Virus record (IMG/VR): IMGVR_UViG_3300040856_003274
Coordinates: 62,001 to 126,000 of that record
Length of the DNA: 64,000 nt
Source: a virus
Reading direction: 5' to 3' (one strand)
Below the pieces are notes generated by a model. That model saw only the letters and a program-made list of their open reading frames with translations, did not search any database and was not told the origin of the DNA. The translations under genes and the position numbers were made by a program. Positions 10,910 to 32,623 of the stretch are shown piece by piece (positions within the stretch are counted from its first letter, which is position 1; each line of letters opens with the position of its first letter).

Positions 10910-13006
10910 TCAGAGACGCGACTTGATCAGTGCGATGAGCACCTTAGCAAAACCCTCAAAGGGCAACGCGAGGCTGTCATCACCGAAGAGGTTCTGAAGT
11001 GTCGAGAGGGCGATGCCTGAGCCTAAGCCGACACCTACCACAATAACACCCTTTTCCCTCGCCCTTCTGACCATATAGCGCGTGGGTGCTTGGTGGTCAC
11101 CGTTTGCGGCTCCATCTGTTAGCACCAACAACACTTTGTGTGTCGCGTCTTGGGCGTAGAGCCCATTATTCGCTTCACCGTATAGTGCATAGTAGATGCC
11201 ATCAGCCGTGGGAGTGCCACCGTTCGCATACACCTCAGAGCAACGGCGCTTTGAGGTGAGGTCCCATTTTTCACTGAACCGCTTGTGGTAGCGGATAGTG
11301 GCCTCACAACGGCGCGTGTAATGATCACGCGTGCCGTAAAATGATCCACACATGAACGCGAGAGCCTCAGTACGCGCACCTATTGCGCTGAACGCATCCA
11401 TCAGTGCATACAGTCCTGAAGCGGTTGGCGAGGTGTGACCATCCATACTAGATGAACCGTCCACAACCACGCTAAGCGCGATGTTTGGCTTGATGATGTC
11501 AACGTCTTTTCGCATAGGGCGCGTAGGAACGACACCTTGGCTAAGCTCAACCTTCGACGGTACGAGTCTCCGGGTCGATAACTTCCCGCGCTTCGTACCA
11601 TGCCTAGTCTCACGGCGGAAGCCGAGAAACAATCGGTTGAGCTCCCGCTTCGCTGACCCGCTCTCTGCGCTCGCACGCTGAGATACTTGACACTGAATAA
11701 AAGTGGGCGCGACGTGCGCGTCACGCACGTCATCATCCTCATACGAGAAAGGTTGATATTGCTCCTCGTCAGCTTTCAACTCCGCTTGAGCTTCGTTGAT
11801 TTTTGAGTCAACAACATCTGTCCAATCAGGCTGAGAGATGTCCCAATCGTCCTCAAAGGGGCGAGGTTGTGGGTCATCAGACCCTCCCCCTATCCCCCCT
11901 TCAGAGTCAGAGTCACTGTCAGAGTCAGAGTCACTGTCAGAGTCACTGTCAGAGTCACCCTTTGAGTCACTGTCAGAGTCAGAGTCACTGTCAGAGTCAC
12001 TGTCAGAGTCACTGTCAGAGTCACCCTTTGAGTCACCCTTTGAGTCACCCTTTGAGTCACCCTTTGAGTCACCCTTTGTTGAGTCATCGTCGCTAGGTTG
12101 TGGATCACCTCCGCCTTGTTGATCAGACTCTTCACCTCCACCGCCACCACCTCCACCGCCACCCGTAGGAGGCTTAGGGGGGGGAGTCAGCGCGAGGTCA
12201 CGAGCGAGATCAAGCGCGATAATCCAAGGCATCCACTGATCACGCTCAGTCTTACCTCCGAGTGCATGGCAACGCGCCACGTACTCGTCAAGTTTAGGCC
12301 AAGCGTGTACCAACGGGTGATACTCAGTCAGCGCCTTAACTTGCTTAGGTGTCTGATAACCGAACCCTTTGTCTCTGATGAGGAAAAAGATGCTCTGCAC
12401 AAAAGCAGTGCGGTCATTCTCAGTCTCGATCTTCTGATAATGGGAAGACCGAGCGGTCGTTTCCATATCATACAATGAGTCTGCGAGCGCCTCAAGAGTG
12501 AGTCGCGCCCCTGGGAAGGTGGCGCATCCGAACCGCTCGATCCTAATGTCCTCGATGATGTTAGTCATCGACTGTAGCTGACTCTCAAGGCCAACATAGT
12601 TAAAGCCTTTCATCTTAGCCTCTGTCTCAGCTACGACCCAATCGGGTACGGAGCCGAGAGCAGAGAGCAGACTATGAAGCGCCTCATGTGTCGCTCCTCC
12701 GCGTAGGTAGAGCTCCACCTGAGCATTAACCTCTTCAGGAGTCGAAGCGATTGTCACCATCGGTGACACAGAGCCAATGCGACTATCCGCGTAGAGCTTA
12801 GCATCGGTAACCGACGCTTTGCGTGTGCAGATCGCATGAGTGAAAAATCGCATTGTCCAAGCATTCCTGTTGGAGTAGGACGAACCTTGACTCCTGATGG
12901 TCGGTGTGATCGCGTCTGAGTTATGCAAAATACTGATCAGGGTCTGTCGATGCGCTTGGCGCACAACAAACCCGCTTTTGGTTTTGTTTCGAGTTATCGC
13001 TTTCAT
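10910..13006 (-). CDS. VWA-domain protein, CobT-like, with HExxH segment and Asp-Ser linker
   Basis: I take ATG 13006 (MKAITRNKTKSGF), with AAGGG upstream, giving 698 residues. The frame above it to 13183 crosses the 25-bp element and reads as non-coding. Residues 107-111 read HEALH in GATHEALHSLLSAL, a zincin-like helix seen in VWA proteins of this type. A Gly run (about 278-290) and an Asp-Ser/Lys-Gly-Asp-Ser repeat (about 309-372) form an acidic linker like that of cobaltochelatase CobT. The VWA domain has a full MIDAS: DGSSSM (D516), GGTPTADG and LVLTDGAAN. It diverges from an AAA gene as expected for a MoxR/CobS-VWA/CobT pair. The role in phages is unknown; protein remodelling is likely. 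Confidence 0.85.
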   Translation of the reverse strand: MKAITRNKTKSGFVVRQAHRQTLISILHNSDAITPTIRSQGSSYSNRNAWTMRFFTHAICTRKASVTDAKLYADSRIGSVSPMVTIASTPEEVNAQVELYLRGGATHEALHSLLSALGSVPDWVVAETEAKMKGFNYVGLESQLQSMTNIIEDIRIERFGCATFPGARLTLEALADSLYDMETTARSSHYQKIETENDRTAFVQSIFFLIRDKGFGYQTPKQVKALTEYHPLVHAWPKLDEYVARCHALGGKTERDQWMPWIIALDLARDLALTPPPKPPTGGGGGGGGGGEESDQQGGGDPQPSDDDSTKGDSKGDSKGDSKGDSKGDSDSDSDSDSDSDSDSDSDSKGDSDSDSDSDSDSDSDSDSEGGIGGGSDDPQPRPFEDDWDISQPDWTDVVDSKINEAQAELKADEEQYQPFSYEDDDVRDAHVAPTFIQCQVSQRASAESGSAKRELNRLFLGFRRETRHGTKRGKLSTRRLVPSKVELSQGVVPTRPMRKDVDIIKPNIALSVVVDGSSSMDGHTSPTASGLYALMDAFSAIGARTEALAFMCGSFYGTRDHYTRRCEATIRYHKRFSEKWDLTSKRRCSEVYANGGTPTADGIYYALYGEANNGLYAQDATHKVLLVLTDGAANGDHQAPTRYMVRRAREKGVIVVGVGLGSGIALSTLQNLFGDDSLALPFEGFAKVLIALIKSRL
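11895..12080 (-). repeat. In-frame microsatellite coding the Asp-Ser linker
   Basis: Repeated TCAGAG/TCACTG hexamers and CCCTTTGAGTCA 12-mers (plus-strand reading) encode (Ser-Asp)n and (Lys-Gly-Asp-Ser)n blocks. All units are multiples of 3 bp, so copy-number changes keep the reading frame. The linker length probably varies between strains. Confidence 0.9.
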
Positions 13007-13208: not shown

Positions 13209-13354
13209 CGTGGTGGGAGGGGTCGGGCTCGCGTGTGTGGGTGTAATGTGCGGGTAATGTTACGCGCTATGCGAGCTCGCGAGCTCGCGCTACCTTAGGC
13301 GCTGGCTCGCGAGTCTGTATGCGAGCCCGTAATGTTACACCTACACACGGCTAA

Positions 13355-13379
13355 TGTCGGGGGAAAAAAGTAATCCGTA
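13355..13379 (+). promoter_or_regulatory. 25-bp conserved element, copy 3
   Basis: Identical 25-mer facing the AAA gene, 188 bp upstream of its start and 81 bp before copy 4. The AAA gene may thus have tandem promoters. Confidence 0.6.
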
Positions 13380-13460
13380 ATGTTAGTAAAGGGAGCGGGT
13401 AGCTGACCTACCGCTAACAAGGCGTTTGTGCTAGTCTTAGGGCTAACATTAGCGTTACGT

Positions 13461-13485
13461 TGTCGGGGGAAAAAAGTAATCCGTA
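13461..13485 (+). promoter_or_regulatory. 25-bp conserved element, copy 4
   Basis: Identical 25-mer, 82 bp upstream of the AAA start. Followed by GGGAG-gcactacg-CTTCCC and GCTCTCT-CAG-AGAGAGC hairpins in the leader. Confidence 0.65.
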
Positions 13486-13567
13486 ACCTTATCAGATGGG
13501 AGGCACTACGCTTCCCTTGTTTCACTGTGCTCTCTCAGAGAGAGCCCTTAAACTTTAAGGAGTATAC

Positions 13568-14617
13568 ATGAGTAAGCATGTATGTCCGTTCTGTAACTCT
13601 CGCGTCAACACTACCCGCAACTGTTGCGATAGCATGAAAGCTGTCCGTGACAGCATGGTTGAAGGAATCAAGAGAGCGCCTCTTCAAGAGGCGCTTTTTG
13701 GCGTTCCTTTGAGCGTCAACCAAACGGCCTACTCCCAAGAGGAGTTGCTCCCGTTCGATCCGCACTTTCAGCTTCCCCGTCAAGGGACACCCGCGTGGAC
13801 TTCTATGCGGAGGGTCGTAAAGGCTTGGGAGTCTAACAAGCCCTTCGTCGTAACGGGAGGCATGGGGCGCAGTAAAGACGCGATCCTCGGATTGCTCAGT
13901 AACCTCACCAATAGGCCGTGTCTTCTCATTAGCTGTGCTCGCTCAACCGATATTGAGGGATTCCTCTATACTCTCGGCTTCAACGCAGAGGGTACTAGCT
14001 ACTCTTATGGGGCTTTATGGAAGGCCCTCACAGAGGGGCATCCCCGAACGGGGGAGCCAATGGTGATCGTCTTAACAGATTTCGACAGGATGAGCCCTGA
14101 TCAGCTCGAAAGGTTTCGCATGATCCTTGATACGACCGCAGGGCGCATTAATGCTCCCGATGGTCGCATCGTGCCTATCAAGCCAGGTACTCTCATTTGC
14201 GCTACCGCTAACTCGGTTGGTAGTGGCGCGGAAGGGTATGTTTGCGAGGTCATTGATGAGTCTATGAAAGACCGCTTTGCGCGGTTCATCGAGGCTGAAG
14301 CGATGGACTCCACAGACAGGGCGCGTATATGCTGTGAGCGTTACTCAGCGCCCACAGAGTGGGTTGAGCCTATCGCAAACTGTCTCAGTGCTCTTGAGTC
14401 TAGTATAGCTCAAGAGGCGCTAGAGTCATTCAATGACTTCAGCTTCCGCGCAACCTCAGCATGGGTCGAGAGCGCTATGCAGGAGCTTGAGCTAGGGAGT
14501 GGGCAACCGCTCCGTGACGCGCTTTTCGATGTCCTCGACAAGCGCGAGCCCGAAGTGAAGCAAAAGATCGAAAACTTATTCGATCCTCACCTCCCTCGCG
14601 ATCCCGCAGGGAGCTGA
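13568..14617 (+). CDS. AAA ATPase-like protein of the MoxR/CobS type with degenerate P-loop
   Basis: The 349-residue protein starts with a Cys-rich segment (CPFCNSRVNTTRNCC, C6, C9, C19, C20) that may bind zinc. The AAA core is recognisable: PFVVTGGMGRSKD (97-104), VIVLTDFDRMS (166-176), LICATANSVGSG and MKDRFARFIEAE, laid out as in CobS/MoxR proteins. The P-loop is GGMGRSKD instead of GxxGxGK[ST] and Walker B is TDFD instead of DEID, so ATP hydrolysis may be weak or absent. It diverges from the VWA/CobT-like gene and shares its control elements and terminator type, so the two probably act together. The stop lies in a TGAGACGCTGAC repeat. Confidence 0.75.
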   Translation: MSKHVCPFCNSRVNTTRNCCDSMKAVRDSMVEGIKRAPLQEALFGVPLSVNQTAYSQEELLPFDPHFQLPRQGTPAWTSMRRVVKAWESNKPFVVTGGMGRSKDAILGLLSNLTNRPCLLISCARSTDIEGFLYTLGFNAEGTSYSYGALWKALTEGHPRTGEPMVIVLTDFDRMSPDQLERFRMILDTTAGRINAPDGRIVPIKPGTLICATANSVGSGAEGYVCEVIDESMKDRFARFIEAEAMDSTDRARICCERYSAPTEWVEPIANCLSALESSIAQEALESFNDFSFRATSAWVESAMQELELGSGQPLRDALFDVLDKREPEVKQKIENLFDPHLPRDPAGS

Positions 14618-14664
14618 GACGCTGACTGAGACGCTGACTGAGACGCTGACTGAGACGCTGAGAT
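14614..14664 (+). repeat. 12-bp tandem repeat (TGAGACGCTGAC) overlapping the AAA stop codon
   Basis: About four copies; the TGA stop of the AAA gene is the first TGA of the array. Similar TGAGAC and CGCTGAC repeats overlap or follow the stops of the VWA gene (10880-10912, minus) and the gene ending at 3961. Confidence 0.8.
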
Positions 14665-14729: not shown

Positions 14730-14734
14730 AATCC

Positions 14735-14787
14735 CCTAACCTTAAGCCCTAACCTTAAGCCCTAACCTTAAGCCCTAACCTTAAGCC
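14735..14787 (+). repeat. 13-bp tandem repeat (CCTAACCTTAAGC), four copies
   Basis: Four consecutive near-identical copies between two terminators. Similar CCTTAACCCTCACCTTAACC runs occur at 33003-33030. No coding role; it may be a slippage product or a binding array. Confidence 0.8.
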
Positions 14788-14825
14788 CCTTGCTCGCCTC
14801 CTCTGTGGAGGTCAGCAAGGGGCTT
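14783..14825 (+). terminator. Strong intrinsic terminator
   Basis: AAGCCCCTTGCT (14783-14794) pairs perfectly with AGCAAGGGGCTT (14814-14825). An inner CCTC/GAGG stem lies in the loop and TTCC follows. It is a second terminator behind the AAA gene, 60 bp after the first. Confidence 0.8.
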
Positions 14826-14872
14826 TCCTATACGGACTACTACCTAAAATCTGTATGAGGGTCGGGTCTGAG

Positions 14873-14905: not shown

Positions 14906-15032
14906 TATGAGCACTTAGCCCCTAGAGCTTTTTGTGCTTATTTGCAAGCGAGGCGAACGAAACATGAGGGCTAGTGTGTATAGGAGATAGCAGGTGGCAA
15001 TCAGGCCACCGCTTCGACACAGGAGACAGCCC

Positions 15033-15647
15033 ATGAAGGCTACCCTAACTAAGTGCGAGCGTTTCGGCGCTGACCATAAGATGATTGATCACGGCTTCAG
15101 TAAGTACGCGATGCCAAGGCTCGGCACAGATGAGCAAGGTTCGCCCGTGGTGGTCTTACAGGTGTGGGATTACGATAACCCTATCCGTGAAGAGCAGATA
15201 CACCTCACACATCATGAGGTCGAGAGCGTGTCTCTCAGCAAGGGCCACGGCTCTTACTCAGAGGAGGGAGTCACGGCACACTATGCAGAGTGGACGTACA
15301 CGCTGACACTCACAGAAGAGGCGGGCTATGTTGTCTTAAAGGGAGTGGGTGATGAGATGGTGTTCATCTCTTGGACTGCGCTTTATGGAGACGGTCAGCG
15401 GAGCTTCCAAGACCAAGAGGGCAACGCGGTTATGTGGAGCGCGGGAGGCTTTCATGAAGAGCTCCCCTCGGTGGAGGATGAGGCTAGGGCGCTGGCGCGT
15501 CGGCTTAACCCGCTCACCGATCTTGACCTCATCTCTAGCCTCCGTGGTCTTTGGGAGCGCAAGCAAGGGTTGCGTCACCAAGCCTGCGACATACTACGCA
15601 AGGGGACTGCTAAGCTCCTCTTTGATGGTAAGCCACCTGAGGTCTAA
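15033..15647 (+). CDS. Unknown 204-residue protein
   Basis: I use ATG 15033 (MKATLTKCERFGADHKMIDHG) because ACAGGAGACAG lies at ideal distance; the GTG at 14994 would make a basic, unlikely extension through a hairpin. The protein is acidic with a beta-rich first half (VVLQVWDYDNP, AEWTYTLTLTEEAGYVVLKG) and a helical C-terminus (EARALARRLNPLTDLDLISSLRGLW). No family is recognised. It lies alone between the AAA terminators and the repeat island, and its stop is followed at once by a 15-bp tandem repeat. Confidence 0.65.
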   Translation: MKATLTKCERFGADHKMIDHGFSKYAMPRLGTDEQGSPVVVLQVWDYDNPIREEQIHLTHHEVESVSLSKGHGSYSEEGVTAHYAEWTYTLTLTEEAGYVVLKGVGDEMVFISWTALYGDGQRSFQDQEGNAVMWSAGGFHEELPSVEDEARALARRLNPLTDLDLISSLRGLWERKQGLRHQACDILRKGTAKLLFDGKPPEV

Positions 15648-15649
15648 TC

Positions 15650-15793
15650 TCTCGGAGCGTCAGCTCTCGGAGCGTCAGCTCTCGGAGCGTCAGCTCTCGG
15701 AGCGCCTGCTCTCGGAGCGTCAGCTCTCGGAGCGTCAGCTCTCGGAGCGCCTGCTCTCGGAGCGCCTGCTCTCGGAGCGTCAGCTCTCGGAGG
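15650..15793 (+). repeat. 15-bp tandem repeat, about 9.5 copies
   Basis: TCTCGGAGCGTCAGC alternating with a TCTCGGAGCGCCTGC variant, beginning right after the stop at 15647. In another frame it would encode LSERQ repeats, but that frame crosses the real gene out of phase, so I treat the array as non-coding. Confidence 0.9.
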
Positions 15794-16019
15794 ATTTCTT
15801 ACTGTCTAAAATCTGTATGGGGGGTCGCGGGTGCAGGTACGGGGGAGGAGGTTGGAGGTACTCATACACTCGCGAGGCTGAGGAGGTCTTGAGGTTGAAG
15901 GCGCTCATACACTCGCGAGGCTAGACCGCTTGAGGCTTGGGAGTGTTCATACAAGTAGAGAGTGTGGCTACCTTGTGGAGGTGCTCATACAGAGGTGGCG
16001 GGTGGCGGGTGGAGCTAGA

Positions 16020-16215
16020 CTGTGAGAGTGTTCATACAGAGAGGGAAGAGGAGGAGGGGAAGATGGAGGCACTCATACAGAGAAGGTGAGGGGAGGGGGA
16101 AGGTGGAGGCACTCATACAGAGAGGGAAGAGGAGGAGGGGAAGATGGAGGCACTCATACAGAGAGGGAAGAGGAGGGGGAAGGTGGAGGCACTCATACAG
16201 AGAGGGTGAGGGGAG
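16020..16215 (+). repeat. Purine-rich tandem block within the island
   Basis: About five units of GAGG-rich sequence, each containing GGCACTCATACAGAGA or a close variant. This is the left-end form of motif A. The strand is almost pure purine between CTCATACAG sites, which could favour triplex or unusual DNA structure. Confidence 0.75.
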
Positions 16216-17242
16216 GCTTCGGTGAGGGTGTTCATACAGAGGCGGTGGGCGAGGGTGAGGTTGGGTGAGGTTGGGTGAGAGTGTTCATACATTACTCTCT
16301 TCAGTCCTCCAAGACGTGTGGGTGCTCATACAGAGTAGAGGAGGACGAGCTACCCGCTGACCTTAGGGAACAGGGGAGAGGGAGGAGGGGGAGAGGGGGT
16401 CGCGTATGTGAGGTGTAGGTGTTCATACTCGCACGCGTACAACGCTCAACGCTCAACGGTTGACCTTAGGGAACAGGGGAGGTGGTGCAACCCTCAACGC
16501 TCAACGGTTGACCTTAGGGAACACACCCAATAACGCTCAACGGTCGCAACGCTCAACGGTATGTGTTGACGCTAGGGAATGAGCACAACCTCCAACGCTA
16601 ACATTAGATGTGGGTGTTCATACATACGCGAAGCCGTGGCTCTGTATGAGTTGACCTTAGGGAACAGCAGAGAAGCTAGAGGCGCGTTGACCCTGTAGCA
16701 TTAGGTGTGGGTGTTCATACAGAGGCTGGCTAAAATCTGTAACGCGTGCGCGTATGCGCCATGTGCGCCTGACCCTCAACGCTATAAGTTGACCTTAGGG
16801 AACAGGTGACCGCCTGAGTAGTTGAGCTAGAGGTCAGGTGAGGACTCGGCCCTGTAATATTAGATGTGAGCGTTCATACAGGGTGGGGGGGCTGTGGTGA
16901 TCTCGCATAGCCTTGTGTGACGTTAGGGAATGGAGAGGGCTCAACCCTAACATTAGATGTGGGCGTTCATACAAGGTGGGGGGCTAGGCGCGTGAGCCAG
17001 CTTGACATTAGGGAATGGGAGGAGGTGAGAGGGCCTCTCAATCAATCAACGACAAAGCCCTCTCATGTACAGGTTCTAGCCAGGCAGGTTTTCCAACACC
17101 GCGCTTAACGAGTCTTTAGAACCTGTATAGCGCACAAGAGAGGCTCGGTCGCCTCTCAAAATCGGCTGAGCTAGAGTAGTTTAAGTGGGGACATTCATAC
17201 ACGCGTGTGTCTCAAAAGCCCCATTTTACGGCACTTAGGAAG

Positions 17243-17258
17243 TTGCCGATTTTGATAG
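17243..17258 (+). repeat. TTTGATAG block, copy 1
   Basis: TTGCCGATTTTGATAG, following a CAAAAGCCCC segment. Related copies lie at 18242-18257, 19605-19620 and 19658-19673, each downstream of a GGGCTC/AAAA-rich segment. Confidence 0.6.
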
Positions 17259-18241
17259 GATGAGCGAGGCGAGGGCTAGAGAGGCTCAAAAGGGGCTCAG
17301 AGAAGGCTCTAATGTTATGTAGGTGTTCATATAACGAGGGGTGGGCGGGTGCGGTGAGTGAGGCGCGAGTGGAGGTGGCGCGAGGGTAACCCTAATAACC
17401 TACTTAGAACCTGTACAGGCTGTGGTGGGGTGTAGCTGAGCTGAGCCGAGACACGCTGACGTTAGGGAACAGGTTATGGCTTACTGAGCCTGTGGAGGCT
17501 GACATTAGATGTGGGCGTTCATACAGACAGGGTGTTTAGAACCTGTAGCGCGGAGGCGAGCTCTCGCCTCTTACTGACTCGCTCAACACTATGAGCTGAC
17601 GTTAGGGAATGGGTAGCGGGCTTGAGCTGAGCTTGGGCCTAACTGAGTCTGACATTAGGGAACAGTTGGGCGGGAGGGGTCGGTGGCGACCCTAACGTTA
17701 GATGTGGGCGTTCATACTACTCTTTATCTAAAATCTGTATTAGGGGGTTCGGGCGCATCTGTAGAGGCGGGCTCTCGTATGTGTTGACGTTAGGGAACAT
17801 CTAGACAGGGGGCAGAGCTGAGAGCAGACACGCTCAGCCCAACTCGCAATATTAGATGTGGGCGTTCATATAATGAGCGGTGGGCTGGTTGGGCTCACTC
17901 CTTGTACACTTGACGTTAGGGAACAGCTCGCTTGTCTTGAGCGCCCCGCGCCACCTCTCGCTCCTATGTGATGTGGGCGTTCATACAGACAGGCGGGGCT
18001 CGCCCTTAAGACACGCTCCTTGACATTAGGGAACAGGGAGACAGGTTGCGCTCTCTCCTGTCACGCTCTGAGACACCTTGACTCGTTCGCTCAAGGCTAC
18101 TAGAACCCGTATAGTTAGAACCTGTATAGGTCGCGCTCAGCCTCTCTGCTTGAGCCTTGAGCAGGGCTCTAGTGGGTGGATGATGGGGACATTCATACAC
18201 GCGTGGGGGGCTCAAAAGCCCCAAAATAGGGCTCAAAATGG

Positions 18242-18257
18242 TTGCCGTCTTTGATAG
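18242..18257 (+). repeat. TTTGATAG block, copy 2
   Basis: TTGCCGTCTTTGATAG, preceded by a GGGGCT-CAAA-AGCCCC hairpin near 18206-18221 and by TAGGGCTCAAAATGG. Confidence 0.6.
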
Positions 18258-19604
18258 AGAGGCGTTTTGCCCCCTCTGAGCCTCTCTCTGAGCCCTCTAG
18301 CGGTAGCTGTTATAGGTATTCATATAAGAGTGGTGGCTGTGAGGCTGAGCGAGCTTGCGCAGGCTCGCGTGGAGTCTCCTAGTGCTTCCGCGAGCTGTCG
18401 AGAGAGACGCGAGGGTGACCCACCCGTTGGCTTGACGTTAGGGAATGGGCAGAGGCTATTTAGAACCTGTATGATGAGCAAGCACCCGCCCTCTGACATG
18501 ATGTCGGTATTCATATAATGAGCGGTGAGCCCCGCCTCGCCTCCCTAACCTTAGTTTGACATTAGGGAACAGTGGGCGAGGGTGGGCGAGGCGGCACAGC
18601 ACCCCTAATGTCATGTCGGCGTTCATATAGCGAGCGGTGGGCTGTCTCCTTCAAGGCAAGCTGGCTTGACGTTAGGGAATGGTAACGGGAGCTGACCTTG
18701 ACCCTCACCTGCTGTGGCTTGACATTAGGGAACAGTGGACGAGCTCTCCTGAAGCTAGGCTAGAACCTGTATAATCTAAAATCTGTATTAGGGGGCTCGG
18801 AGGGCTACCGACCCCTCCCGTAATATTAGATGTAGGCGTTCATATAAAGACGATCTCGCCTTGCCCCTCTAGACTGGTAGACGCTAGGGAATAACTAGCC
18901 CTATCTAAAATCTGTATTAGGGGGCTCGGAGGGGCTATCGCACCCTCTACGGTCTGATGAGAGCGTTCATACAAGGTCGGTGCTGAAGCAAGGCTCTCGT
19001 ATGTGTTGACGTTAGGGAACAACAGGTCGGCTCGAAATCTCCCTGTGGCGAGCGCCCCTTTACAGGTTCTAGCTAGCCTTGTACGGCTGAGGGCGGGTCG
19101 AGTAGCTCAAGCAGCACCCCACAGGCTAAGTTGACATTAGGGAACATTACAGCGGCCTTAGCGTCAGCGTCTCTAACATTAGCCTAATATCATGTCGGCG
19201 TTCATATAAGGGCTGAGCCGAGATCGTCCTAGCTCGTATCTGCCGTGGCTTGACGTTAGGGAACAGGCGGGCAGAGGTGAGCCAACCTAAGAGATAAAAT
19301 GTAAACATTCATACAAGGAGCTAGGGCTACGCTCAGATGACCCAATATACCTGACGTTAGGGAATAGCTCAGCCTGACAGGTAGCCCTTTTGCCTCGCTT
19401 GATGTTAGGGAACATCAGGGCTACCCTCGCGCTTGTCTGAAGTCGGCTTGAGATACGCGGAGCGCCCCTCTCACGTTCGGATGTAAACCGCGCCCACACG
19501 CTAAGCTCTACTAGAACCTGTATAGAGCCCGACTCAGAGTGCTTTGTTGGGGACATTCATACCCGTAGAGAGGGCCAAAACACCCTCCAAGAGGGCTATT
19601 TTTG

Positions 19605-19673
19605 TTGGCGACTTTGATAGGATGGGGCTCAAACCCCCGAAAATACGGTACTTTTTGTTGGCGACTTTGATAG
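19605..19673 (+). repeat. TTTGATAG block, copies 3 and 4
   Basis: Two copies of TTGGCGACTTTGATAG at 19605-19620 and 19658-19673. A GGGCTCAAACCCCC segment lies between them. Confidence 0.6.
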
Positions 19674-19743
19674 ACCTATTTTTCGTGGGATCATTCATAG
19701 CGTGTGCGGGTGAGAGCGGCTTTTTGGCTCGCCTTTTGGAGAG

Positions 19744-19827
19744 ACTAGAACCTGTATAAACTAGAACCTGTATGGTACTAGAACCTGTATAATACTAGAA
19801 CCTGTATGGTACTAGAACCTGTATAAT
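19744..19827 (+). repeat. 17-bp tandem array of motif C, five copies
   Basis: ACTAGAACCTGTATAAT and ACTAGAACCTGTATGGT units head to tail, flanked by a block TGTGGGA(T/C)CATTCATAGCG that repeats with the next array. The period of 17 bp is exact. Confidence 0.9.
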
Positions 19828-19894
19828 CTCTCTTATGTGGGACCATTCATAGCGTGTGCGGGTGAGGGTGGCCTTTTGGCTCGCCTTTTGGAGA

Positions 19895-19997
19895 GACTAG
19901 AACCTGTATAATACTAGAACCTGTATAATACTAGAACCTGTATGGTACTAGAACCTGTATGGTACTAGAACCTGTATAATACTAGAACCCGTATAAT
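19895..19997 (+). repeat. 17-bp tandem array of motif C, six copies
   Basis: Same unit as at 19744. The last copy has CCCGTATAAT. It is flanked by the same GCCTTTTGGCTCGCCTTTTG segment as the previous array, so the whole block was duplicated. Confidence 0.9.
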
Positions 19998-20080
19998 CTC
20001 TCTTATGTGGGATCGTTCATAGCGTGCGTATGTGAGAGGACGCGCTCCCCCTCCTAGACGATGTAGGCGTTCATACATAC

Positions 20081-20180
20081 TTAGAACCTGTATGGTACTA
20101 GAACCTGTATAATACTAGAACCTGTATGGTACTAGAACCTGTATGGTACTAGAACCTGTATAATACTAGAACCTGTATGA
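20081..20180 (+). repeat. 17-bp tandem array of motif C, six copies
   Basis: Starts TTAGAACCTGTATGGT and ends TAGAACCTGTATGACCTGA. It follows a motif A copy (ATGTAGGCGTTCATAC) directly. Confidence 0.9.
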
Positions 20181-20274
20181 CCTGAGCCTCCCCCTAGGTG
20201 ATGTAGGTATTCATACAGGGGGGGCTGACCCCCCCCCTCCCCTGTGAGTTGACCTTAGGGAACAGCAGACAAGC

Positions 20275-20340
20275 CTAGAACCTGTATAATATTAGAACCT
20301 GTATAATACTAGAACCTGTATAATACTAGAACCTGTATGA
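20275..20340 (+). repeat. 17-bp tandem array of motif C, four copies
   Basis: Four TAGAACCTGTATAAT units, the last ending in GACCTGAGCCTCC, the junction sequence that recurs through the rest of the island. Confidence 0.9.
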
Positions 20341-20599
20341 CCTGAGCCTCCCCCTTGTCCCTTGTGTTGACGTTAGGGAACAGGGGGGGTGAGCCTCCCC
20401 CTAGAGGATGTCGGTATTCATACAAGGAGGGCGAGCCCCTTTTAGTTGAAGGTTAGGGAACAGTAAAACGTCTCAGATCGCTCTCTGAGGCGCTTTAGCT
20501 CTCAAGCCTGCTCTACCCCTAGCTTAAGGACTCTAAAGAGCACACGAGCGAATTTAGAGCCCTCCCTCGAAGGCTTTAAGCTGGTTATGCGACCCGCCA

Positions 20600-22960
20600 A
20601 AAGACCCCCTAGATGATGTAGGTATTCATACAGGGCGGGCTGAGGGTGGCTCAGGGCAACCCCTTGTGTTGAGGTTAGGGAATGGGAGAGGCTGTTTAGA
20701 ACCTGTATAATATTAGAACCTGTATGACCTGACCCGACCCTGCCCCTTGTGTTGACGTTAGGGAACAGGTGGCCTGAGCCTCCCCCTAGATGGTGTCGGT
20801 ATTCATACAGGGCGGGCTGAGCCTCCTCCTCCCTTGTTGAGGTTAGGGAATGGAAGGAGCTGTTTAGAACCTGTATGGTACTAGAACCTGTATGACCTGA
20901 CCCGACCCTGCCCCTTGTTGACATTAGGGAACAGGTAGCCTGACCCTCCCCCTAGATGGTGTCGGTATTCATACAGGGCGGGCTGAGCCTCCTCCTCCCT
21001 TGTTGAGGTTAGGGAATGGAAGGAGCTGTTTAGAACCTGTATGGTACTAGAACCTGTATGGTACTAGAACCTGTATGACCTGACCCGACCCTGCCCCTTG
21101 TTGACATTAGGGAACAGGAGGCTAGGCTGACCCCCTAGAGGATGTAGGTATTCATACAAGGCTCCCCCTAGGCGCTCCCCCTCCCTTGTTGAGGTTAGGG
21201 AATGGGAGAGGCTGTTTAGAACCTGTATGGTACTAGAACCTGTATGACCTGACCCCCCCCCTCCCCTTGTTGACATTAGGGAACAGGAGGGCTAGGCTGA
21301 CCCCCTAGAGGATGTAGGTATTCATACAGGAGGGCTGAGCCTCCCTCTAGGCGCACCCTCTTGTTGACATTAGGGAATGGGAGGAGCTGTTTAGAACCTG
21401 TGTAATATTAGAACCTGTATGACCTGACCCCCCTCCCCTTGTGTTGACATTAGGGAACAGGAGGCTAGGCTGACCCCCTAGACGATGTAGGTATTCATAC
21501 AGGGTGGGCTGGGGGTGGCTCAGGACGCACCCTCTTGTTGACACTAGGGAACAGGGGGCTGTTTAGAACCTGTATAATATTAGAACCTGTATAGCATGGG
21601 CTCCCCCTAGGCGCTCCCCCTTGTGTTGAGGTTAGGGAACAGGAGGGCTAGGCTGACCCCCTAGATGGTGTCGGTATTCATACAGGGCTCCCCCTAGGCG
21701 CTTCCCTTGTGTTGAGGTTAGGGAATGGGAGAGGCTGTTTAGAACCTGTATGGTACTAGAACCTGTATGACCTGACCCCCCCTCCCCTTGTGTTGACGTT
21801 AGGGAACAGGAGGGCTAGGCTGGCCCCCTAGACGATGTAGGTATTCATACAGGGTGGGCTGGGCCTCCCCCTAGGCGCACCCTGTGAGTTGACATTAGGG
21901 AATGGGAGGAGCTGTTTAGAACCTGTATGACCTGAGCCTCCCCTCCCCTTTGTTGACGTTAGGGAACAGGCGGCTAGGCTGACCTCCTAGATGGTGTCGG
22001 TATTCATACAGGGTGGGCTGGGGTGGCTCAGGACGCACCCTGTGAGTTGACATTAGGGAATAGGAGAGGCTGTTTAGAACCCGTATGACCTGAGCCTCCT
22101 CCTCCCCTTGTTGACGTTAGGGAACAGGTGGCCTGACCCTCCCCCTAGGCGCTCCCCTGTGAGTTGACGTTAGGGAACAGGTGGCTAGGCTGACCCCCTA
22201 GATGGTGTTGGTATTCATACAGGTGGCCTGAGCCTCTCAGGACAGCCCCTCCCTTGTTGACATTAGGGAATGGGAGGAGCTGTTTAGAACCTGTATGACC
22301 TGAGCCTCCTCCTCCCCTTGTTGACGTTAGGGAACAGGCGGCCTGAGCCTCCCCCTAGAGGGTGTCGGTATTCATACAGGTGGCCTGAGCCTCCCTCTCC
22401 CCTGTGAGTTGACATTAGGGAACAGGTGGTCTGACCCTCCCCCTAGGCGCTCCCCCTTGTTGACATTAGGGAACAGGTGGTCTGACCCTCCCCCTAGAGG
22501 GTGTCGGTATTCATACAGGTGGGCTGGGGGTGGCTCAGGACAGCCCCCCTTGTTGACGTTAGGGAACAGGAGGGCTAGGCTGACCCCCTAGAGGATGTAG
22601 GTATTCATACAGGGGGGGTGGGCCTCCCTCTAGGCGCTCCCCTTGTTGACGTTAGGGAACAGGGGGGGTGGGCCTCCCCCTAGGCGCTCCCCTTGTTGAC
22701 GTTAGGGAACAGGGGGGTGGGCCTCCCTCTAGGCGCTCCCCTTGTTGACGTTAGGGAACAGGGGGGTGGGCCTCCCTCTAGGCGCTCCCCTTGTTGACAT
22801 TAGGGAACAGGGGGGGTGAGCCCCTGTGGAGCCTCCCCCTTGTTGACGTTAGGGAACAGGGGGGGTGAGCCTCCCCCTAGAGGATGTCGGTATTCATACA
22901 GGGGGTGAGCCCCTGTGGAGCCTCCCCCTTGTTGACATTAGGGAACAGGGGGGGTGAGGC
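20600..22960 (+). repeat. Homogeneous right half of the island
   Basis: Units run B (GGGAATGGGAGGAGCTG) - C (one or two copies, then GACCTGA) - B (GGGAACAGG) - CCCCCTAGA - A (GTCGGTATTCATACAGG). Successive units differ at few positions, in contrast to the left half. Toward 22.6-22.9 kb, C drops out and only B blocks with CCTCCCTCTAGGCGCTCC remain. The pattern points to recent unequal recombination or slippage. Confidence 0.85.
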
Positions 22961-23364
22961 CGATTGGAACACGCGGGGCGCTCCCCAGCCCCCCCCAAAT
23001 AGCCATATTAAACCTGCATGGAAAATGACAACCTTAATTTGAAACCCTCTTTAAGAAAGGTATTTCCTCTCAGAGAAGGGGGTCAAATGCAGGCGCATGG
23101 GACTTTCTCGCGGAGGGAAGGGGGGTATGCTTATATATTATTGGGTTTTGAGCGCGGAGGTATGGACTTATTAAAGGGGTTTGTCTCAGGGAGGGGGGTC
23201 ATATAGGGGGGCTTTTTGGTTTTGGTTTTACGGGGAAGTGGATCTTAAATTTCTTTTGGCTAATTTTTTTTGAGGTTGTTTTTGAAAAGGGGTGTGTGGG
23301 TGTTAGAGCTCCTATAACGTGACTAAGGTAAAACCTTCATTAAGACGAGAGGTAAGGTTACGCT
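22961..23364. other. Non-coding junction between the repeat island and the domain-repeat operon
   Basis: The last motif B ends near 22950. What follows is A/T- and G-run-rich, with a short frame (23018-23206) that has no ribosome site. A small AAGGT-AAA-ACCTT hairpin lies near 23325, shortly before GAGAGGTAAGG, the ribosome site for the gene at 23365. I see no clear promoter here. Confidence 0.5.
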
Positions 23365-24387
23365 ATGAGTGCTAAACATAAGAGAGACGTGGAGTTGCTT
23401 TTGTCTTATATGCCTGACAATGGTTTCTTACAGGGCTTATCAAACAGACTAAGGACAGGTATGAGCTTGACACCTAAGCAGGTGAGCGCCTTGGAGGGTA
23501 TTAAAGCTCGAATGTCGTCTAAGCAAGCTAAGATTAAGCGAGACAAGGCGAGGGTATCAGAGGCTCTAAGGGTATATTCAGAGAACCCTTTCTTGCAGAG
23601 TCTCTTGGAGCATTTAAGTGACGGCAAGTCTATGAGCGCGAAGCAAGACGAGGCGTTAACGGCAATCGAGGAGAGAGCCGCTCGTAGATTAGCGAATATG
23701 GAGAGGCGGTCTGCTGGAGTTAAGCGTGAGATGTTGAGTGTCTTGAGGGGTTTATCTAGAGTGTCTGACTTGAGCCCTGAGGAGAGTGAGTTTGTGAGGC
23801 GCATGATGAGTCTAGTGGAGGGCGACCTTAAGATTAGCGTGAGGCAGAAGAGTTACATTAGGGGTTTATGTAGTAGGCATTTGGACTCGGCGCGTGGTCG
23901 TAGCTCTGCGGATAAGTTTGGTGCTAAGGTGAAGAAGCATTTTGGTGGGAGGGGTAAGAAAGCGTCGGTGAGTCGTGCTTGGGATTATGACAGGGGGGAG
24001 TGGGCATATCGTGTGGGTGGTGGTAAGATTAAGTATGCGAGTGAGGAGGTCTTAGATTACAAGGTTGAGTGGGGTGATCCGCCGAAGCCTAATGCGTGGA
24101 GAGCAATACTTAAAGGTAGGATGTCAGATGGTCGTATTGAGGTCACTTCGCCTTTGATTGTGGGGAGGATTATGTTCAACATCTTCCCTCATGAGATAGA
24201 TGTTTCTTACAGACGTAAGGGTTACTCTGCTGTTGACCTTGGGACGATCAGGAGGCATGGCGACATGGACAGTATTTTCAGTCATGCGACGTACACTAAG
24301 TATATTAAGCCTGCGATTTTGAGTGGTGCGCTTGAGCTGGGGAGTCAGGGGAAGAAGATCGCTTCAGGAGAGGGGTTTGAGGGATGA
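23365..24387 (+). CDS. Domain-repeat protein 1: three helical modules plus one WGDPPKPN domain
   Basis: The N-terminal 180 residues hold three related helical modules: FLQGLSNRL..GMSLTPKQVSAL, FLQSLLEHL..GKSMSAKQDEAL and FVRRMMSLV..LKISVRQKSYI. I have seen such modules in phage and bacterial nucleic-acid proteins. A basic hinge (KKHFGGRGKKAS) follows, then one copy of the domain starting VEWGDPPKPNAWRA and ending GKKIASGE. The next two genes carry five and six more copies. The stop overlaps the next ATG (ATGA at 24384). Function is unknown; the basic helical half suggests DNA or RNA contact. Confidence 0.75.
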   Translation: MSAKHKRDVELLLSYMPDNGFLQGLSNRLRTGMSLTPKQVSALEGIKARMSSKQAKIKRDKARVSEALRVYSENPFLQSLLEHLSDGKSMSAKQDEALTAIEERAARRLANMERRSAGVKREMLSVLRGLSRVSDLSPEESEFVRRMMSLVEGDLKISVRQKSYIRGLCSRHLDSARGRSSADKFGAKVKKHFGGRGKKASVSRAWDYDRGEWAYRVGGGKIKYASEEVLDYKVEWGDPPKPNAWRAILKGRMSDGRIEVTSPLIVGRIMFNIFPHEIDVSYRRKGYSAVDLGTIRRHGDMDSIFSHATYTKYIKPAILSGALELGSQGKKIASGEGFEG

Positions 24388-26144
24388 GCACTTATAGTCT
24401 TAAAGCTCAATGGGGAGCACCCCCGAAGCCTAACTTGTGGAAGGTAGAGCACAGTGAAGACCATCAAGGTCATAATAAATGGACGGTCACGTCCCCTGCG
24501 ATGGCAGGCGCTGTAATGCTAATTCACTCTAAGAAAGCCTATCCTGAATGGTGGGTAAACTACTATAGGGATAGGAAAGAGACGCATAGTAGGTCTACTA
24601 ACTATAAACGGATTTATAGTTATTTTGCCCACGCAAATGGAGAAATGACGGACGCTGAATGTTTCAAGCATTTTTTTAGTGAGGGGTTTTACAGGGAAGT
24701 AATCACAGGTTTTATTAAAAACGGTTTGATTGAGCTCAAAGTGCCTAAGGTAGCTTCTTCTAACCTTGAGGCTCAATGGGGCGACCCTCCTAAACCTAAT
24801 GTGTGGAAAGTAGAGTACGATAAGGCTTTTACTCAGTACACGATCAAGTCGCCTGTGTTAGAGGGTCATTTCGTTGTGAAGATGTACCCACCTAGCTCGG
24901 CGGAGATAAAATTCTTTGACGCTACAAGAGGAGTGACTTGGGCGAGGTATCTCAGCCCTGTAACGATAGAGGATATCTTGTCTCGTCAATTCTATCTTGA
25001 GAGCATTAAACCTGCGATTTATTTGACGCAGGAGATAAGACTTAAGAAAGGCTTAAAAGTGGCTTCTTCAGAGATTAAACTTCAATGGGGCGACCCTCCT
25101 AAACCTAATGTGTGGAAGGTAAAAGAGAGGCCAGGGAGAGGTGTTAAACACCGTGGTTACATCTTCGACATCTCTACACCTTTAGACCCTTATCTAGGGA
25201 TAACGATCCATCAAAGTCCATCTAACTGGGGAACAAGAAAAGCCTATAGGACAGCCGTGTATTACGGGTCTAGCTGTCTTATTGAGAATGCGGCTGGCTT
25301 TCTTGTCTCTGAAGGTGCTCATCCCGCAGATACTTTCAGCACTCAGTCTTTTTGGGATCGCATAAAAGATGAGATTAGAGATAAGACACCTACTTCTATG
25401 AAGGTAGCTTCTTCTAACCCTCAAGCTCAATGGGGCGACCCACCTAAGCCTAACATATGGAAGGTGGAGACGCTTCAACGCTCTAAGATGGTCGCGCTAA
25501 CTCGCGTAACTTCACCTGTCTTACAGGGCTCAATATGGCTTGGCGTATATGGGGCGGTTTTTTACTGCCCACATGACAAGATGCCCTCACCTCTTACAGA
25601 AGAAAAGATGGTAGAGTTTGAGAACAATCTTGATCCGACGAAAGACCATGTTGATATTACAAGGATCATGGGGATCAATCCAAAGAGACTTTTCCTCTCT
25701 AATAAGTTTTATTTAGAGCACTTAGCGCCTAAGATTGCAGGCGGGATCATTAGGTTAAACGGTAATGTTAAGGTTGCTTCAGGAGAGGCTCTCAAAGCGA
25801 TGTGGGGCGACCCCCCTAAACCTAACGTATGGTCGGTTGAGGAGGTTAGATATGGCTGGGAGCCAATGTATCGAGTGTTCTCACCTTTGATGGAGGGTGA
25901 GGTATGGTTAAGCGACTCGCTTCTCGTTTACTACTTCCCCAAGGGCTTAGGTCTTCCTCAAAGAAAACTAGGGCCTGACTGTGACCTGCGAAGCCTATCG
26001 TTAGTAGACGGTAACTACCCGTTGCAGAGGTTAAAAAGCGCCAAGAGCAAAGAGCACTTCTTGTCTCAAGCGTTTTGGTTAGAGCACCTTAAGAGCAATA
26101 TACATCTTAAAACAAGTAAGCTGGCTTCTAAGAGAGGTAAATAA
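24384..26144 (+). CDS. Domain-repeat protein 2: five WGDPPKPN domains
   Basis: The 586 residues are five tandem domains of roughly 100-130 residues and nothing else. Each opens with (L/I)xxxWGxPPKPNxWKV, has T-S-P-(L/V/A) about 25 residues later, a Tyr/Phe-rich beta stretch, a (F/Y)(Y/W)LExIKPxI-like helix and a closing K(V/L)AS. The core is highly conserved while the middles differ greatly in length and sequence, so the duplications are old. No signal peptide or membrane segment. It is coupled to genes 1 and 3. I do not recognise the domain. Confidence 0.8.
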   Translation: MSTYSLKAQWGAPPKPNLWKVEHSEDHQGHNKWTVTSPAMAGAVMLIHSKKAYPEWWVNYYRDRKETHSRSTNYKRIYSYFAHANGEMTDAECFKHFFSEGFYREVITGFIKNGLIELKVPKVASSNLEAQWGDPPKPNVWKVEYDKAFTQYTIKSPVLEGHFVVKMYPPSSAEIKFFDATRGVTWARYLSPVTIEDILSRQFYLESIKPAIYLTQEIRLKKGLKVASSEIKLQWGDPPKPNVWKVKERPGRGVKHRGYIFDISTPLDPYLGITIHQSPSNWGTRKAYRTAVYYGSSCLIENAAGFLVSEGAHPADTFSTQSFWDRIKDEIRDKTPTSMKVASSNPQAQWGDPPKPNIWKVETLQRSKMVALTRVTSPVLQGSIWLGVYGAVFYCPHDKMPSPLTEEKMVEFENNLDPTKDHVDITRIMGINPKRLFLSNKFYLEHLAPKIAGGIIRLNGNVKVASGEALKAMWGDPPKPNVWSVEEVRYGWEPMYRVFSPLMEGEVWLSDSLLVYYFPKGLGLPQRKLGPDCDLRSLSLVDGNYPLQRLKSAKSKEHFLSQAFWLEHLKSNIHLKTSKLASKRGK

Positions 26145-26145
26145 A

Positions 26146-28332
26146 ATGAGCATTCAGTTAAGAGTTATGTGGGGCGATCCTCCCAAGCCTAATGTGTGGC
26201 AGATTAAGCATACTCCTGCAATCCCTGCTAGGAAGAAGTCTGAGAGTTGGGTCATTCAGTCGCCTTTGCTCCTTACTAGCTTCACTGTCTACAAGAGAAA
26301 GCAGACAGGCAGGTTTGTTGTTTACTACGGCGAAGGTCTTAATACAGGTAAGGTTTCAGGTAATAACGGAGATTGGTATTTAGAGTACATCTTGTCTAAT
26401 GAGTGGTACATGGAATACATAAAGCCTCTTATAGAGAGCGGATATATTAGGAAGCGAGATGATAACCTCAAGATCGCGAGTGAGATGAAGGACGCAGAGG
26501 TCATGTGGGGCGATCCTCCTAAGCCTAATGCGTGGAAAGTCTTCTTTGAAGACGGCTACGGCGCTAGAAATGACCGATGGAGGGTAGTGTCGCCTCTTAT
26601 TGTGGGACGTATTTTGATAGTGGAAGACGGCCCTTACTTCCGCTTTTCTTATGTCGTCAGCCTCAAAAATTATGTTACTATGTTTAGTGTGCCTAAGAAT
26701 AAAGTGAAAGGTAATACGCTCGGCAAGGCGCTGTTTAGTCACGCGATGTGGGAGAAGATAAGACCTTATGTTACGGACGGGACGATTGTCCTCAACGTAC
26801 CCAAGATTGCTTCAGAGCAACTTCCAGGTAATCTCGAAGCTCATTGGGGGACTCCTGCTAAGAAGAACATATGGAAGGTAAGAAACATCTTCAACAACCC
26901 TGATATGGTTGAGGTCACGTCACCTTTTATGGAGGGTGCGATTGAGGTGCATACTAACCAAGGTTATTCTAACGGGATTTACTACCCTGATTTGAATAGC
27001 ATTGAGGGTAAAGTGGCGCTTTGGAAAATAGAGAGGGGAGATTTAAGCTACGTCTTGAGCTCAGAAGGTTACAAGAACCTTATAAAGAAGCATATCGACA
27101 TGGGAGTTATTAAGATTAAGAGAGGCTCTAAGGTAGCGTCCTCAGAGATTAAGCTCCAATGGGGTGACCCCCCTAAGCCTAATATGTGGAAAGCAGAGCG
27201 GATAAAAGGGAGCACTCAATCTCGTTTAACGTACTTAATAACCTCACCTCTATTTAGGAGGACAATAGACGGTGATCGGTTTGCGCTAAAGGTACAAATC
27301 GACCCGTGGGCTAACGAGGCTATCATCAACCTATTTTACCAATATAACGCTAGAACAGGGATGCCTTTAGGTACTTATCAACTGTCAGAAGACTACTTCC
27401 ACAACATCGACCATTTACTTGCTCATTCTTCTACATGGGCGCTTGCGATAAAGCCAGCTTTAGCTCGCGCTGAGAGAGAATGGAGTCAGTCGATATTAAC
27501 AAGTAAAGTAGCGTCTACTGCTGTTAAACTCCAATGGGGTGATCCCCCCAAGCCTAATATGTGGAAGGTTAGACGCTATTTGGGTCAAAACAACTTTATT
27601 ATCACATCGCCTTTATTTAGTGATGTTTATAACTACGGTGGCGACGTTACGGCGCTAAGGGTAAGCATATCAAGAAGCACCAACCCCAATCGCGGCACGT
27701 TTATACCCAAAGCATCTTTCAGCTTCGGGTTGTTGGAAGAAAACGGCAACTTTATAAATAAGGTTAGCGGAGGTGAGAAGTTTGATAAAGACTTTGAGCT
27801 AGAGGTGGTCAATAATCGAGTCCTTCTAAACTCTGAAGAAGTGTTGAAATCACATAGCTTTTGGAAAAATGCCGTAAAACCTGCATTAGAGAACATAAGC
27901 ACAGGATGGTCATACGGAGAGGTTTTCAAAAGTAGAGTAGCCTCCCTCCGCACTAACTGGTTTCCTGACCATGTAACAAGTAACCCCCAAGTTAAGCTAA
28001 ATTGGGGGAGCCCTGCGAAGCCTAACATTTGGAAGGCTTGGAGAGGCGATAGCGGAGACTCTTTCTTTTACTACATAGAGTCACCTTTGTTGAAAGACAC
28101 TTGCATAGAGATCCGTGTAGACCAAAGGAGCACTGTGGCAGAGGTTTTCTTCTATGATGACAATGATGGGGACATGCGAAAAGTTAAGCATATAAGTCTT
28201 GCTTCTAGAGGGACTGACCCCTTTGAGTTAGATGAGGATGTTCGATCAGAGGAGTTTTGGAATTTTGTGGTTAGCCCTCAGCTTAAGGGACACGGGCATC
28301 TCAACAATGTTAGGATCGCCTCTGAGTTTTAA
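26146..28332 (+). CDS. Domain-repeat protein 3: six WGDPPKPN domains
   Basis: The 728 residues carry six further copies: VMWGDPPKPNVWQI, VMWGDPPKPNAWKV, AHWGTPAKKNIWKV, LQWGDPPKPNMWKA, LQWGDPPKPNMWKV and LNWGSPAKPNIWKA. Two copies have Ala-Lys in place of Pro-Lys. Each ends in K(V/I)AS or R(V/I)AS. The start is 1 bp after the previous stop, with GAGAGG upstream. The stop TAA (28330-28332) overlaps the stop of the convergent PEPCK gene. Possible roles are virion decoration, a modular binding scaffold, or binding to the nearby DNA repeats; none is shown. Confidence 0.8.
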   Translation: MSIQLRVMWGDPPKPNVWQIKHTPAIPARKKSESWVIQSPLLLTSFTVYKRKQTGRFVVYYGEGLNTGKVSGNNGDWYLEYILSNEWYMEYIKPLIESGYIRKRDDNLKIASEMKDAEVMWGDPPKPNAWKVFFEDGYGARNDRWRVVSPLIVGRILIVEDGPYFRFSYVVSLKNYVTMFSVPKNKVKGNTLGKALFSHAMWEKIRPYVTDGTIVLNVPKIASEQLPGNLEAHWGTPAKKNIWKVRNIFNNPDMVEVTSPFMEGAIEVHTNQGYSNGIYYPDLNSIEGKVALWKIERGDLSYVLSSEGYKNLIKKHIDMGVIKIKRGSKVASSEIKLQWGDPPKPNMWKAERIKGSTQSRLTYLITSPLFRRTIDGDRFALKVQIDPWANEAIINLFYQYNARTGMPLGTYQLSEDYFHNIDHLLAHSSTWALAIKPALARAEREWSQSILTSKVASTAVKLQWGDPPKPNMWKVRRYLGQNNFIITSPLFSDVYNYGGDVTALRVSISRSTNPNRGTFIPKASFSFGLLEENGNFINKVSGGEKFDKDFELEVVNNRVLLNSEEVLKSHSFWKNAVKPALENISTGWSYGEVFKSRVASLRTNWFPDHVTSNPQVKLNWGSPAKPNIWKAWRGDSGDSFFYYIESPLLKDTCIEIRVDQRSTVAEVFFYDDNDGDMRKVKHISLASRGTDPFELDEDVRSEEFWNFVVSPQLKGHGHLNNVRIASEF

Positions 28333-29891: not shown

Positions 29892-29974
29892 AACGTCTCC
29901 TTTATTTATTAAATACTTACAGAGCATATCGAAGGATATGCTGCGCTTCGTTATGTAAAAAAACAACAGTATTA

Positions 29975-32394: not shown

Positions 32395-32419
32395 TACGGA
32401 TTACTTTTTTCCCCCGACA
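32395..32419 (-). promoter_or_regulatory. 25-bp conserved element, copy 5
   Basis: Reverse complement of the 25-mer, 57 bp upstream of ATG 32337. Followed on the minus strand by a GGGGCAATACCGTTCCCC hairpin. Confidence 0.65.
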
Positions 32420-32440
32420 TTTAGGCCGAGAGCGCACTGG

Positions 32441-32530: not shown

Positions 32531-32542
32531 GTAATATTAACG

Positions 32543-32581: not shown

Positions 32582-32623
32582 TGTGTGCTATGCGGGCGCG
32601 TGCGTATCGAGCGTGAGCCTTAA

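Follow-up and report, generated by a model that had tools for sequence, protein, structure and literature searches.

A 7-kb locus in the genome of a large uncultured myovirus (about 260 kb) conserves some 160 short sites amid otherwise random DNA. Such conserved words in random surroundings point to one large platform where DNA-binding proteins dock, and our leading, still tentative, reading is that the island is a cis-acting platform on which sequence-specific proteins assemble on double-stranded DNA. We infer that the motifs are bound by proteins, the mass of sites being what matters.

Extent and composition of the island

The array of short motifs, named A, B, C and D, extends from position 15,807 to 22,955 of the window (the whole 64-kb stretch of DNA analysed), with a D site first and a B site last. 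It lies in a somewhat wider zone without genes (about 15,648-23,364), and no open frame longer than 90 codons was found in the island, save a 150-codon frame on the minus strand that is built of the repeats. Using relaxed definitions, 52 A sites were counted on the plus strand and 2 on the minus strand, against 57 and 0 for B and 46-47 and 2 for C, together with 5 sites of D, a C-like variant (TAAAATCTGTA). The total is about 160 sites, roughly one per 45-50 bp, nearly all on the plus strand. Exact copies of TTAGGGAACAG (34) and TAGAACCTGTAT (41) in the 168-kb record are every one on the plus strand and within the island, and TTCATACAG occurs 20 times on the plus strand of the island and once, on the minus strand, elsewhere in the record. 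Dinucleotide shuffles of the 64-kb window gave expected numbers of 0.19 for TTAGGGAAYRG (49 observed), 0.01 for TAGAACCTGTAT (41 observed) and 0.01 for GGYRTTCATAYA (30 observed).

These counts and shuffles bear out the initial annotation, which had described a gene-free island of motifs A, B and C, each in dozens of copies and mostly in one orientation. Its coordinates were correct, the gene-free zone being slightly longer, and its motifs are real, but A, B and C are longer than first given (A about ATGTNGGYRTTCATAYA; B about TTGACNTTAGGGAAYRG; C TAGAACCTGTAT). Within the 168-kb record, sites are confined to the island apart from one nearby D-like site, and the best PWM matches outside the island are far under typical site scores. 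The core ATACAGG/CCTGTAT, said to be common to A and C and to allow opposed protein sites, was found in 15 of the 52 A sites; of the 32 A sites in the left half, only 1 has it. It is thus mostly a trait of the recently amplified right half, and the idea of opposed sites holds for a minority of A sites.

Coordinates of the different parts, and of the neighbouring genes, are collected in Table 1. The A-only left edge (first ~0.5 kb) has a 40-bp period and purine-rich spacers, purine content rising to about 71% per 300 bp. Between 16.3 and 19.47 kb, the left half contains 24 B, 20 A and 7 C sites, with unrelated spacers. Spacing is restricted there, the A-to-B distance being 39-56 bp in 13 of 14 cases, and no helical phasing of the sites was detected in this left-half analysis. 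The B-only right edge covers the last ~0.3 kb of the island. Sites were multiplied repeatedly by tandem duplication.

Table 1. Parts of the island and neighbouring features, with positions in the window
Feature	Position	Strand	Remarks
MoxR-like AAA_5 ATPase gene	13568..14617	+	upstream neighbour
Lone D-type site CTAAAATCTGTATG	14838..14861	+	upstream of the 217-aa ORF, just past a terminator-like hairpin (14783-14825); top C/D match outside the island, 18.5 bits
217-aa ORF	14994..15647	+	neighbour; without family or phage relative
Tandem array of a 15-bp unit, CTCTCGGAGCGTCAG, 9.6 copies	15649..15792	+	right after the stop of the 217-aa ORF; abuts the left of the island
Left edge: one D, then 12 A only, spacing 38-53 bp	15807..16340	+	
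Left (old) half: A and B alternating, with C/D	16340..19690	+	
Reverse-orientation C site	17080..17091	-	one of two; the other near 19,074
C-rich core: four clusters of 4-6 copies each, TAGAACCTGTATRRTAC, 17-bp period, linked by A sites	19690..20340	+	
Right (young) half: higher-order repeat of ~160-180 bp, A-B-C-(C)-B	20610..22520	+	
Right edge: tandem array almost B-only, 49-bp period, G-rich spacers	22600..22960	+	
Three co-directional ORFs (340, 586, 728 aa)	23365..28332	+	downstream neighbours

Motifs are kept while spacers are randomised

Between copies of the left half, identity of the cores amounts to 0.86 for B, 0.80 for A and 0.93 for C (80-93%), whereas that of the flanks is 0.25-0.29, at or barely over the shuffled background (0.25-0.26), and information content falls to background immediately beyond the motif cores. 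In the right half, the mean pairwise difference is 0.057 in motif columns versus 0.324 in spacer columns, a contrast that was not equalled when the motif mask was rotated (0 of 203 rotations). Both halves thus indicate that the motifs, and not the repeat unit, are conserved, which supports the cis function proposed earlier for the island.

This pattern can be set against that of a selfish or neutral satellite, devoid of function and generated by tandem duplication and gene conversion. The many short tandem repeats of the genome and the clear higher-order repeat structure of the right half would suit such an origin, but decay under neutrality would affect motifs and spacers alike, whereas here motifs are 80-93% identical and spacers random. 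Coding density is high in the remainder of the record, so that 7.5 kb of ballast would be atypical, and we consider a satellite very unlikely.

With its short conserved repeats and unique spacers, the left half has a CRISPR-like look. CRISPR arrays have a single repeat, about 23-47 bp long, and spacers near-constant in length, whereas the island has three interleaved repeats of 12-17 bp and irregular spacers of about 24-60 bp. No spacer matched a phage or plasmid at E<=1e-5, a level that single short spacers could escape; palindromic cores are absent, and neither a cas nor an integrase gene was found among the genes examined. No exact repeat exceeds 31 bp in the left half or 116 bp in the right, so that short reads can thread the island, although the copy number of the right half may be inexact. 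We consider it extremely improbable that the island is an integron attC array, a CRISPR-like one or an artefact of assembly.

Genome context and search for counterparts

Genes flanking the island encode MoxR-like, VWA, 217-aa orphan and WGDPPKPN-domain proteins, the latter named after a new repeated domain, WGDPPKPNxWKV...SP...KVAS, present in 12 copies in the ORFs of 340, 586 and 728 aa. Searches for relatives of the VWA, MoxR, 217-aa and 340-aa genes gave nothing useful. The predicted structure of the 340-aa protein was of too low confidence for use (pLDDT 46), and the model of the WGDPPKPN domain (pLDDT 74) matched no known fold. The genome abounds in short tandem repeats, inside and between genes.

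A motif scan of viral contigs gave no match for B, and only single-copy, chance-like matches for A and C. The B scan of genome contigs returned 42 single matches and no array, blastn against phages and plasmids no match to the island, and a literature search of incomplete coverage no description of such an island. The initial annotation knew of no described counterpart, and none was found in the collections searched (contig motif scans, phage and plasmid blastn). No A, B or C site was found in two relatives, the sequence of close relatives stopping short of the island region; one of these, mostly 89-96% identical, ends 5 kb before the island, and some 82 kb (G000 8-90 kb) are missing from it. 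The distant relative LR745208.1, a 485-kb huge phage, has no clustered 10-mers or array comparable to the island.

Weighing RNA, regulation and replication

RNA stems had been suggested in the initial annotation, and a long non-coding RNA of the plus strand, with A, B and C as RNA motifs and the spacers as hairpins, would fit the co-orientation of all sites. Attractive individual stems can be found by eye, and for the A-to-B spacers of the right half pairing is better with the own partner, on the plus strand only (7.20 vs 6.37 bp, P=0.0003 without adjustment for the 16 tests and with relatedness uncontrolled). In the other spacer classes, however, an arm pairs with its own partner no better than with a swapped one. 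Fold z-scores of the island (-1.00 on the plus strand, -0.92 on the minus strand) are not clearly beyond those of the flanks (-1.04, -0.58), the folds of plus-strand spacers in the left half are no more stable than those of coding DNA controls (mean z -0.25 vs -0.19), and no Rfam family was matched. The hairpins picked by eye, such as GACATTAGGG/CCCTAATGTC at 18563, failed the own-versus-swapped tests or the shuffles. Apart from one weak exception, then, stems find no general support, and we judge the RNA explanation improbable.

The sites might also titrate a regulator of the host or of the phage, or constitute a stacked activator or promoter region for the plus-strand operon starting at 23,365. 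Many sites in one place, together with ongoing amplification, suit selection on site number; C frequently reads TGTATAAT; and the lone D site, before the 217-aa gene and after a terminator-like hairpin, is placed as a promoter element would be. Yet sigma-70-like promoters and terminators are not above shuffles (2 vs 4.4; 3 vs 6.3), and the other genes of the phage show no enrichment of A, B and C in their upstream regions, so that no regulon is visible. A promoter array was rejected on these two grounds, and we hold a sponge or regulatory array, taken together, to be unlikely.

Iteron origins are usually built as arrays of conserved short direct repeats. The island resembles them in this respect, within non-coding DNA and at a single locus per record, and A, B and C could be iterons for phage initiator or helper proteins, in an origin or a replication enhancer. 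However, it is GC-rich (0.49-0.61 vs about 0.47 for the genome) and lacks an AT-rich unwinding stretch. GC skew, proposed earlier as a check for an origin, is positive on either side of the island without a change of sign. A sharp flip (-0.43 to +0.27 within about 2 kb) occurs instead 24 kb away in the same genome, at a separate AT-rich locus with CAAATTAATTTG iterons and 33% GC (G000 53.33-53.56 kb), which is a better origin candidate. A similar AT-rich locus is present at 67.2 kb in the relative G002, where the skew change is weak. No initiator family was recognised among the neighbours of the island, but most proteins fall in no family. Its GC-richness, the lack of a skew switch and the presence of the other locus make an origin less likely, and we regard it as improbable. 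The functions first listed (origin, partition, packaging, anchoring or sponge) have been narrowed only slightly by this, the cis function itself being retained.

A proposed docking platform for proteins

For the protein platform, which we favour, some 160 recognition sites, asymmetric and co-oriented and falling into three kinds (A, B and C/D), would form one cis unit, and probably two or three sequence-specific DNA-binding proteins would jointly coat the locus as a large nucleoprotein complex. Its likeliest specific role would be centromere-like or anchoring, i.e. the tethering, positioning or partitioning of the ~260-kb genome, though we see this as doubtful. More improbable is a new type of centromere or anchor combining three interleaved site classes, alpha-satellite-like higher-order amplification, putative phage proteins and a possible link to Volactin-like filaments. 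A predicted actin-like protein, assigned to the Volactin family by sequence similarity (E=1.8e-76), is encoded at G000 25306-26343, and would be only circumstantial support for a partition role. Several points count against the platform. The actin-like gene is ~52 kb off and also present, 69% identical, in the array-less LR745208.1; helical phasing, frequent in cooperative arrays, is absent; and the weak plus-strand pairing of the right-half A-to-B spacers would suit RNA.

AlpAC and similar phage actin systems bind repeated sites to move DNA, the alpS site of AlpAC of prophage CGP3 being TTAAnnG (PMC5539076). AlpAC-alpS and ParMRC, where a DNA-binding adapter uses the sites, share with the island the repeated short sites, and the genome of this phage also has an actin-like gene. 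However, alpS and parC are far smaller and lie beside their own genes, whereas the 7 kb of the island hold ~160 sites of three kinds; adapter and motor genes adjoin the sites in AlpAC and ParMRC, and none such was found beside the island. The EBV oriP family of repeats is a single dense array of protein sites, with spacers, that serves as tether and enhancer. It resembles the island in its density and spacers, but consists of about 20 copies of one site type, whereas this bacterial virus has three types and ~160 sites. In Borgs, the tandem repeats are short, perfect units that lie head-to-tail and formed recently (PMC9879509). Borgs and this phage both have a large extrachromosomal genome with tandem repeats in and between genes, but Borg units are free of SNPs, whereas the units of the island are imperfect and its motifs persist between fully diverged spacers.

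Kilobases without genes are rarely retained by phages. That a 7-kb locus conserves nothing but ~160 short sites implies that a cis function needed by large phages is under strong selection, one without earlier description as far as searched. The bait sequences for a search of partner proteins are now defined, under either role. If the island is a sponge, it would be a regulator decoy of unusual size; if anchoring or partition is true, it would offer a handle on the placement and organisation of large phage genomes in the cell.

The virus and its relatives

Judging from its gene content, the virus is a tailed phage: its record (G000, 168,266 bases) carries two contractile-tail markers, baseplate J and a tail sheath C-terminal domain, together with genes for DnaB-like and SNF2-type helicases, a eukaryote-type topoisomerase IB and PhoH. 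Its close relatives are a pair of contigs from a single sample, and the island lies outside both. The first (G001, 72 kb), which ends 5 kb downstream of the island, is mostly 89-96% identical to G000 in aligning stretches (G000 160.3 kb to window position 27,957), some stretches being lower, near 77-84%. The second (G002, 105 kb) is ~86-94% identical to both G000 ends, and bridges the G000 start by a match at protein level. Since G002 spans both ends, the phage genome is probably circular or circularly permuted; its length would be ~260 kb, with ~91 kb absent from G000. A distant relative is the uncultured huge phage LR745208.1 (485 kb), whose baseplate protein shows 40% identity over 97% of its length. 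The abundance of short tandem repeats within and between genes, exemplified by the Asp-Ser repeats of a VWA protein, is reminiscent of Borg elements.

Features of the phage genome. Plain positions are those of the window (G000:62,001-126,000); L handles are stretches of the records.
Feature	Coordinates	Remarks
Motif array	15,807 to ~22,955	enclosing gene-free stretch ~15,648-23,364
Single D-type site	14,844	upstream of the adjoining 217-aa gene
AT-rich iteron-like locus (230 bp)	G000 53.33-53.56 kb (L011:13330-13560)	CAAATTAATTTG/AAATTGTTTTC repeats, 33% GC
Similar AT-rich repeats	G002:67177-67360 (L038:7177-7360)	weak skew change
Volactin-family actin-like protein	G000:25306-26343 (L010:5306-6343)	69% identical in LR745208.1
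New repeated protein domain WGDPPKPNxWKV...SP...KVAS	24070-28329; also L010, L011, L015, L022	>30 copies, many ORFs; no Pfam family above cut-off, no fold match
Repeated module TAATGTCGGGGGAAAAAAGTAATCCGTAATGTTA	13350-13490, 32400-32650; G000 ~58.75-59.04, 65.4-65.5, 75.0-75.5, 94.4-94.7 kb	copies frequently inverted, lying where neighbouring genes diverge; resembles a divergent promoter or leader
Repeated leader, ~100 nt, adjoining gene starts	33000-33115; L011:17505-17610, 18028-18120; L012:181-274	two hairpins, CCCTCACC..GGTGAGGG and GGGAGTCC..GACTCCC; absent from Rfam
ATP-type phosphoenolpyruvate carboxykinase	28329-29966 (-)	apparently full length
DndB-like (DNA sulfur modification-associated) protein	30064-31065	
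3450-aa ORF	39499-49851 (-)	distant LR745208.1 relative, 29% identity
Short tandem repeats	11901-12078, 14614-14661, 14734-14788, 32440-32530; L011:19536-19925	within and between genes

Anatomy of the array

The initial annotation had described dozens of motif copies, mostly one way round, and the strand ratios bear this out, being nearly uniform (A 52:2, B 57:0, C 46:2). Within the whole record all three families are limited to the island, the top match elsewhere being the single D-type site. Old-half logos give approximately ATGTNGGYRTTCATAYA for A and TTGACNTTAGGGAAYRG for B, and TAGAACCTGTAT for C; none of the three is palindromic, so that bound complexes would be directional. From left to right come a 15-bp tandem array, purine-rich DNA with A sites only, the old half, where A and B alternate and C and D also occur, C clusters with a 17-bp period, the young half, whose higher-order units of ~160-180 bp read A-B-C-(C)-B, and a right end of B only, with a 49-bp period.

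No exact repeat in the old half exceeds 31 bp, so that this half at least is unambiguous for short reads; in the young half exact repeats extend to 116 bp. An assembly artefact is highly improbable. A CRISPR array was discarded, since three kinds of short repeat are interleaved and the spacers are irregular. Scans of the island for promoters and terminators gave no excess.

Motifs are conserved, spacers are not

Were the island a tandem repeat in decay, its motifs and spacers would be expected to diverge in step. Pairwise identity in the old half was 86% among B cores (n=24) versus 26-28% in the 28 bases on each side (26% when shuffled), 80% among A cores (n=20) versus 28-29% in the flanks, and 93% among C cores (n=7) versus 25-29%. 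Across ten young-half units, the difference was 0.057 in motif columns versus 0.324 in spacer columns, a gap equalled by none of 203 motif-mask rotations; the mask, set by motif matching, is somewhat biased to conserved columns, but the gap far exceeds such bias. Divergence is unequal in both halves, unlike in a decaying tandem repeat; a neutral satellite is, in our view, highly improbable. The contrast is the pattern that would be expected for maintained recognition sites.

RNA and origin readings

Many stems looked plausible by eye, and were submitted to a comparison of true with swapped partner arms. Only in young-half A-to-B spacers, on the + strand, did a spacer's own arms pair better (P=0.0003, uncorrected for the 16 tests made, and with relatedness of units uncontrolled); in all other spacer classes true partners did no better than swapped ones. 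Fold energies of the island are unexceptional, and it has no Rfam family match. RNA stems, an earlier suggestion, thus retain that one uncorrected signal, but are not supported as a general rule, and an RNA reading of the island is decidedly improbable.

A replication origin had also been proposed. The island is GC-rich, however, and GC skew is positive throughout the surrounding region, with no sign change at the island, so that an origin or replication enhancer is improbable too. A better candidate origin is the AT-rich iteron-like locus, whose repeats coincide with an abrupt GC-skew flip, although gene direction likewise switches nearby.

A possible protein-binding platform

Our favoured, still tentative, reading is that the island is a platform for protein binding in double-stranded DNA, on which occupied complexes would be directional. 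It is preferred because motifs are kept and spacers are not, because the locus is non-coding and not clearly RNA, and because the sites are asymmetric, dense, repeatedly amplified and limited to one locus. Elements made up of many protein-binding sites are already known; the island falls in none of the families tested, and the literature and sequence collections searched hold no phage counterpart of such a higher-order array, with three motifs spread over 7 kb. That it acts as a sponge or regulatory array is unlikely. The likeliest single role for the island, itself doubtful, would be anchoring or partition, in which the phage Volactin-like protein may be a partner; its gene lies far from the island, and is conserved in LR745208.1, which has no array.
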